Assembly (NCBI GenBank): GCA_003973385.1
Contig: QNYK01000089.1
Coordinates: forward strand, 1 to 64,000
Origin: Bacillota bacterium
GTDB lineage: Bacteria > Planctomycetota > UBA8108 > UBA1146
Reading direction: 5' to 3'
DNA: 64,000 nt
Under the pieces are notes generated by a model that had not been told where the DNA came from, searched no databases, and was given only the letters and a program-made list of their open reading frames with translations. The position numbers were made by a program, and so were the translations under genes. Positions 4,834 through 5,572 of the stretch are shown here, piece after piece. Positions within the stretch are counted from its first letter, which is position 1. Each line of letters opens with the position of its first letter.

Positions 4834-5324
4834 CTGCTGTCCCCCTTGTCATGGAATTCCACCAAGGCTCATGCAGGGATTCAATACCACGTGAGCATTC
4901 TGTTCCAAGATGATTTTGCACCTCTCCGCCAGAATTGTTCCTTCGGCGATCAGATTATGGCGTAGGGAAGGGGCACACCCTGAGTTTTGCTCGCCAGCAG
5001 CAGCGACCGATGGCAGTGGTCGTTGCTCCGGATCACGATTTCTCGGGCCAGTTGTATGCGGGGAATCGGCGCTGGATCGATGAGGGCGATGTCTTTGCCA
5101 TGAAAAATCCCGGTGATCTCGAGGGTTTTCTGGAAACAGTTCGCTTTCGGTAGCTCTTGAGACCCGCTCAGGGGCCGATCCAGCGGCAAGGCGGTGCCCT
5201 CCAGGTTTATTGTCCGAACTGATGGTGGTTCCGGATCTCACGGTAGCGGGCAGTTCCGGGAGTGTTCCTGGCTGATCGCAGGGAAAGAAACGCAACGATG
5301 GAGTTGCGAGGAGATGGAGTCACC
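4834..5324. other. 491-bp region without a convincing gene
   Basis: This lies between the divergent starts of the beta-rich exported protein and the double-glycine peptide, so it should hold promoters for both, but I see no convincing sigma-70 boxes. The only open frame of note is 4935-5153 (+), listed separately as a possible gene remnant. Confidence 0.5.
4935..5153 (+). pseudogene. Possible gene remnant or orphan 72-codon ORF
   Basis: A 72-codon frame with no ribosome site. Its second half (MAVVVAPDHDFSGQLYAGN and DEGDVFAMKNPGDLEGFLE) reads like genuine protein with balanced composition and not like a shadow frame. The pattern of a hydrophobic strand, a glycine-containing loop and GDVFA followed by a glycine loop loosely recalls Rossmann-like SLOG/DprA-type domains, but this is weak. 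It could be the tail of a decayed gene or chance. Confidence 0.2.
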
Positions 5325-5486
5325 ATGAACAACTACGAAGTCGACAAGGTCACGGATGCAGAGCTCGAAGGTGTCGCTGGTGGTGCGAAACTGACTGCGG
5401 AAGAACAAAAGAAGCTCGCTGAAATAAAGCGAAATGCAGTCAACGAGGGAGATGTGGTCCCGAAACCGAAGCCCAAGGGCAAGTAG
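5325..5486 (+). CDS. Small peptide with double-glycine-type leader (bacteriocin/RiPP precursor-like)
   Basis: 53 residues from the ATG at 5325, which follows a purine-rich site (gaggagatggag). An earlier in-frame start at 5262 has no ribosome site. The first 20 residues end in DAELEGVAGG, matching the LxxVxGG pattern recognised by C39-peptidase ABC exporters. Cleavage after Gly-Gly would release a 33-residue, cysteine-free, lysine-rich peptide ending in PKPKPKGK. No modification enzyme or C39 peptidase lies next to it. A very strong intrinsic terminator follows 37 bp after the stop, so it is probably a single-gene transcript. The leader is directly visible; export and any activity are inferred. 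Confidence 0.6.
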   Translation: MNNYEVDKVTDAELEGVAGGAKLTAEEQKKLAEIKRNAVNEGDVVPKPKPKGK

Positions 5487-5522
5487 TTCAGCTCGATGAC
5501 TTCCGTGACACAGGTTCGTCAG

Positions 5523-5572
5523 ACGGCCTGGATCTCCGACCAGCGGTCAGGGATTCAGGCCGTGTTTTTTTA
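5523..5572 (+). terminator. Strong intrinsic terminator after the double-glycine peptide
   Basis: A long hairpin pairs 5523-5541 with 5545-5563 (outer arms ACGGCCTG and CAGGCCGT), with one mismatch and a few G-T pairs around an AGC loop. It is followed by a run of seven T residues (5565-5571). Confidence 0.9.

Follow-up and report, generated by a model that had tools for sequence, protein, structure and literature searches.

At positions 5,325 to 5,486 (+ strand) of the 64,000-nucleotide stretch of DNA analyzed here (the window) lies a gene with a double-glycine (GG) leader that very probably encodes a secreted peptide served in trans by a single NHLM-type exporter and that would add a new variant to the known NHLM systems. 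We propose that this gene forms a small transcription unit of its own that would be transcribed alone, and that its leader would be recognized by the C39 domain of the NHLM-type ABC exporter encoded on contig C15 of the same genome (TIGR03796) and cut after Gly-Gly (Gly20). The 33-residue hydrophilic peptide would then exit via ABC1/ABC2 and the HlyD adaptor, probably be released unmodified, and act outside the cell, while the same exporter would also serve several scattered paralogues. The observation of a GG-leader gene in the initial annotation is confirmed by our analysis, and its interpretation is partly supported. The relevant features are as follows:

5211–5236, + strand: promoter-like element TGTCCG-N14-CCGGAT, common to other GG-peptide genes and apparently secreted-protein genes
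5256–5271, + strand: conserved inverted repeat CCGGGAGTGTTCCTGG, near-identical in six type-A genes (see below); candidate operator or RNA hairpin
5292–5307, + strand: second small inverted repeat GCAAC-gatgga-GTTGC, preceding the ribosome-binding site
5310–5317, + strand: probable ribosome-binding site GGAGATGG, with a similar purine-rich stretch at the equivalent place in homologues
5325–5384, + strand: GG leader of 20 codons, predicted cleavage after Gly20
5385–5483, + strand: predicted mature peptide of 33 residues, Lys/Pro-rich, without Cys and with GK at its end
5519–5567, + strand: conserved 3′ stem-loop RNA element with a covarying helix, then a T7 tract at 5565–5571
Contig C15, about 51.6–52.1 kb: C39 domain of the exporter

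The precursor peptide and its family

The open reading frame at 5325–5486 (+) is translated into 53 amino acids in total, composed of the leader MNNYEVDKVTDAELEGVAGG and the core AKLTAEEQKKLAEIKRNAVNEGDVVPKPKPKGK, and this translation bears out the Cys-free Lys/Pro core of 33 residues that had been described from the letters of the window. The core is very hydrophilic, with a mass of 3.6 kDa and a calculated pI of 9.8. With V at −12, E at −8, L at −7, V at −4, and G at −2 and −1, the leader shows the GG end and the hydrophobic or acidic residues at −12, −8, −7, and −4 of short, C39-processed GG-leader precursors, and apart from V instead of L at −12 it agrees with the pattern L(−12)-x3-E(−8)-L(−7) known to be recognized by C39 peptidases (quoted in PMC6363468).

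Homologues were found by peptide search in the same genus and family, and the loci that we read define a peptide family of 38 members (counting the window peptide) from nine genomes of marine Planctomycetota. The identified relatives are marine Planctomycetota metagenome-assembled genomes (MAGs), among them Planctomycetia bacterium TMED53, in agreement with the planctomycete-like genome suspected earlier. The GG motif is kept in 38 of 38 members, no homologue lacking it was found among those read, and together with the fit of the leader pattern this supports a genuine GG-leader export precursor. No description of the family was found in the open-licence literature. Leaders across the family are short (about 18–34 amino acids) and comprise type A, the window type (MNxxExExISDAELEGVAGG, 18–20 amino acids, with a core that mostly ends in GK), as well as type B (MTDDKKHDDKDRKKVSDEELEDVAGG and related forms). 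Residues M1, D11, A18, G19, and G20 of the leader are invariant among 14 homologues, and dN is lower in the leader than in the core for nearly all ortholog pairs (leader dN 0 and core dN 0.10–0.17 for the operon peptides of genomes G002–G004).

The window locus is syntenic in three congeners (G001, G002, and G003), all of which carry a DUF418 gene upstream of the peptide; a zinc-ribbon gene follows downstream in G002 and G003, and the G001 contig ends before that point. The window copy of the locus shows a local rearrangement. Translation from an upstream start at 5262 was rejected because several homologues have in-frame stops 6–13 codons upstream and because positions 5256–5307 contain conserved noncoding inverted repeats, which leaves the start at 5325 as originally called.

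Searching the own genome for C39-ABC transporters and further LxxVxGG peptides, as had been suggested with the initial annotation, yielded the exporter on C15 and 7 matches to a degenerate DNA motif of the leader end (versus 0 with a reversed control), although one of these (C17:21906) is not a GG peptide judged by its context. One-mismatch motif matches in exporter-free genomes (e.g., G008 and G011) revealed no small GG open reading frame in the stretches read, and a viral origin was rejected given 0 relatives among 90 motif matches in viral contigs. The window peptide matched no NCBIfam or Pfam model; it gave no match over the cut-off to the NHLP leader model TIGR03793 and none to the Nif11-like leader model TIGR03798, against which one sister peptide scored 22.8 bits (cut-off 32.3). 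The usual substrates of NHLM systems are peptides, often modified ones, that carry an NHLP or Nif11 leader, and this counts against our preferred explanation. An AlphaFold model of the peptide has low confidence (pLDDT 62, helices at 11–19 and 25–41) and was left out of the reasoning.

Several further observations concern individual family members. A C-terminal K is nearly invariant among type-A homologues (GK or K; 5478–5483 in the window), with the rest of the core changing fast. A single open reading frame of G001 (contig C77, L061:167–376) carries two successive GG leaders (DEELEDVAGG ... DEELKDVAGG), and a core motif N/S-[ST]-[STA]-[RK]-S-N recurs in type-B peptides (L116:404–541, L117:5042–5182, L123:33–212, L061:167–376, and L058:538–696). 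Decayed fragments at 4935–5153 of the window and at L036:9370–9900 (− strand) have in common a stretch with 58% identity over 33 amino acids, and in G002 such a fragment lies beside a remnant resembling DprA (DNA_processg_A) and a 3′ stem-loop copy that has no GG gene with it.

The NHLM exporter and its link to the peptide

As had been stated before, no exporter is encoded nearby, with no C39 peptidase found within the 64-kb window. The own genome contains two C39 matches, one of which belongs to a complete NHLM operon on contig C15 composed of genes for a cNMP protein, an HlyD-like protein (TIGR03794), a C39-ABC protein (TIGR03796), and an ABC protein (TIGR03797). The latter three each score over their curated cut-offs and constitute the NHLM transport set, with 1033 bits for the C39 exporter against a TIGR03796 cut-off of 853, and the cNMP protein reaches 118 bits against TIGR03896, below the cut-off of 161. 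Its intact C39 domain has a match at 3e-46 to LahT150, a GG protease that tolerates varied substrates and whose structure has been solved (6mpz), and the motifs of the active-site Cys, His, and Asp (ECGAAS, NHFVV, and NDP) are aligned. Separately, a 290-amino-acid protein of the own genome (G000:C25:8554–9426, L034) that has a C-terminal C39 peptidase domain, a hydrophobic N-terminal half, and no ABC fusion is possibly a second GG protease.

Homologues of the window peptide are physically linked to this exporter in related genomes. A type-A GG peptide stands first in the operon, directly before the cNMP and exporter genes, in six of them (G002, G003, G004, G010, G014, and G015; the G002 operon is split across two contigs); the operon of G005 has two GG peptides at its front, and in G001, peptide and exporter are found at two contig ends. 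No peptide was seen in the operon of the own genome, where only 52 bases separate the cNMP gene from the upstream end of C15 and an operon peptide would fall into the gap; this, too, counts against our explanation.

Peptide and exporter also co-occur across genomes. A family profile search gave matches in 9 of 118 genomes, and the exporter is present in all 9. The peptide family is found in 9 of 10 genomes with the exporter versus 0 of 20 without it (Fisher p = 7e-7 for the 30 genomes tested for both, and p = 9e-4 for the association within the family, kinship being ignored in both cases), and in G012, the tenth exporter genome, the operon is cut by a contig end. Genus g5 includes some members with both peptide and exporter and others with neither. 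A further point against it is that the window gene and the exporter lie on different contigs, so that their pairing rests on homology and co-occurrence. The scattered family peptides of this genome, the window's included, have an export leader in common but differ in their presumed active part, and they are probably all sent out by this one dedicated exporter encoded elsewhere. The window peptide is not the orphan that had been considered because a complete NHLM C39 exporter is encoded on C15 of its genome and because a homologous peptide heads the exporter operon in relatives.

Conserved flanking elements and core replacement

Upstream of the gene, the TGTCCG/CCGGAT box has its two halves exactly 14 bases apart, as do 44 of the 53 exact matches from G005 and the genus of the window (p about 1e-18 when four spacings are taken as equally likely) and 7 of 31 matches in other genomes. 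We infer that it serves as a promoter, possibly one read by an alternative sigma factor; a search for sigma-70-type promoters found none. The box also occurs upstream of apparently secreted-protein genes (L165, L166, and L169 on contigs C20, C32, and C61 of the own genome as well as L176 on contig C43 of G005), which possibly form a common regulon with the GG peptides. The inverted repeat at 5256–5271 has one site only in the own genome, and for the second repeat, which is likewise conserved among the six type-A genes, inspection of the homologues indicated that the stem is kept while the loop varies.

Downstream of the gene, a strong 19-bp terminator had been proposed initially, and the strong hairpin is indeed there (18 pairs, arranged as 14 + 4 around one internal mismatch; fold z = −4.4 vs shuffles for the hairpin region). 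The features of an intrinsic terminator, a GC-rich hairpin followed by a U-tract, are present in the window, but the T-tract is absent behind most homologous hairpins, while the hairpin itself is kept in all six type-A genes of the window locus type and is more conserved than the cores. That the gene forms its own transcription unit, as also suggested initially, is likely. Similar hairpins are found 3′ of type-B genes, and a joint alignment of type-A and type-B hairpins contains 5 compensatory pairs, a number equalled in 1 of 500 shuffles (nine sequences only). A covariance model (R1) gave 15 matches at a score of at least 52 bits in 584 kb of retrieved loci, a specificity figure limited to these loci, which are enriched for peptide genes. 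Thirteen of the 15 matches follow GG-peptide genes, with type-A and type-B leaders both represented, and one of these thirteen is in a different genus and outside the training set. No GG gene immediately precedes the other 2. No Rfam family matched the hairpin. By these sequence comparisons, it is an RNA element conserved among GG-peptide genes whose cores are unrelated, and it seems to be more than a plain terminator.

Among six type-B genes, which form the sister subfamily, leader DNA is 81–96% identical (z of 14–36) and the 3′ region 83–93% (z of 42–51), with the core mostly at chance similarity (z of −0.6 to 4.7); the flanks are thus near-identical around mostly unrelated cores, and we conclude that cores were replaced between fixed flanks. 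Contig C50 of G004 has a tandem copy of the leader and its upstream sequence with a new core (L115:4767–4940), which carries a MopE-like CDGKDNDCDGD motif (1e-5, below the curated cut-off) and is unrelated to the core of its neighbor. A core start resembling Flp/Fap pilins (ATAIEYGLIA[AS]L, Pfam E of 9e-5 to about 1e-4, below the curated cut-off) is followed by divergent sequence at L035:3770–3943 (contig C84 of the own genome), L058:787–960, and L119:4875–5048. As a tentative and rather speculative reading, these genes could be cassettes with a fixed 5′ part (promoter-like box and leader) and a fixed 3′ stem-loop part whose core is swapped wholesale, so that one exporter would broadcast a changing set of unmodified peptides, some with core pieces resembling other extracellular proteins (the Flp pilin start or the metal-binding motif of MopE). 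In that case, the stem-loop might serve as a signal for RNA processing or a site of recombination, and not only as a terminator. If core replacement is an active mechanism, it would be a simple natural system that diversifies secreted peptides.

Biological role and relation to known systems

A surface, matrix, or signalling role of the peptide seems a little more likely than that of a classical bacteriocin because nothing in the composition of the core suggests membrane activity and none of the accompanying genes is a candidate for immunity. In the bacteriocin scenario, which we consider possible but doubtful, export would be the same and the cores would kill or inhibit relatives, with competition driving their variety. 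The GG leader and C39 exporter would suit such a function, as would cores that change faster than leaders and, in the sister subfamily, have been replaced in their entirety, a pattern that antagonistic peptides would show. It is mildly opposed by the strongly hydrophilic, mostly Cys-free cores of the family, by the window peptide matching no bacteriocin family, and by the lack of a conserved immunity-gene candidate beside the window gene or within the operon, bearing in mind that immunity genes are hard to recognize by sequence.

We regard it as improbable that the peptide is a modified RiPP, which would have to be matured by tailoring enzymes outside the lanthipeptide, azole, and SPASM kinds. 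This idea draws on the definition of NHLM exporters via modified peptide families (PMC2887384) and on a recurring N-[ST]-[ST]-[RK]-S-N motif in some sister cores. Against it, LanC-like proteins (PF05147) and YcaO (PF02624) had no match over cut-off in 16 genomes, and the window core has no Cys; neither the LanC-type cyclase and core Cys of lanthipeptides nor the YcaO cyclodehydratase of azole-modified peptides (TOMM/LAP) was thus found. Among radical-SAM RiPP enzymes, the SPASM type was covered (TIGR04085) and gave no match in three peptide-bearing genomes (the own genome, G001, and G010), and the exporter operon contains no enzyme gene. Since none of these enzymes was found, the peptide is most likely unmodified and, judging from gene content, probably exported as such, which makes the initially considered RiPP unlikely in the modified sense. 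Finally, a chance open reading frame with a GG motif before an ordinary intrinsic terminator is a negligible prospect. In its favor, small open reading frames with a GG motif arise in 36% of simulated windows (Markov-3, matching composition), and the motif alone is therefore weak evidence, but conserved orthologues, a constrained leader, synteny, operon-borne homologues, and common flanking elements refute it, and the window gene is thus real by homology and not by its motif.

In our preferred explanation, the window gene encodes a secreted peptide for which the NHLM-type exporter works in trans, and one such exporter would then handle a family of hydrophilic and apparently unmodified peptides in marine Planctomycetota that are uncultured. 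Discussion of NHLM exporters usually centers on enzyme-modified peptides. The leader pattern and the common 3′ stem-loop offer two handles for finding genes of this kind, which are mostly missed by the family models that we used.

Class II microcins and bacteriocins have in common with this system the GG leader and a C39 exporter with an HlyD-type adaptor, but here we saw no immunity gene, no hydrophobic toxin-like core, and no family match. Prochlorosins of marine picocyanobacteria (PMC10783134) are alike in that a conserved GG leader precedes hypervariable cores and numerous paralogues depend on shared machinery acting in trans, yet they are lanthipeptides made by a LanM enzyme, whereas no LanC-like gene was found here. 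By description, the system also resembles EbfG1–4 and PteB of Synechococcus elongatus (PMC4997328, PMC9981879), i.e., small GG-motif proteins and the C39 peptidase transporter that exports them from a cell with an outer membrane. EbfG1–4 function in the biofilm matrix and at the cell surface, and EbfG1–3 form amyloid; mature EbfG proteins have 6–7 kDa compared to 3.6 kDa for the very hydrophilic window core. EbfG peptides are a precedent for GG-motif peptides serving biofilms; the window peptide could have a role in matrix, signalling, or competition.

The closest likeness is to NHLM systems (Haft et al. 2010, PMC2887384), with which it has in common the transport families TIGR03794/03796/03797, a TIGR03896-like cNMP protein, and multi-copy GG-leader precursors that are often distant from the exporter. 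It differs in that the leaders are short and reach the cut-off of neither the NHLP nor the Nif11 model, the search for modification enzymes found none, the cores are hydrophilic, and a 3′ stem-loop stands behind many of the precursor genes. Compared to known NHLM systems, the unusual part is the conserved 3′ element together with core replacement.
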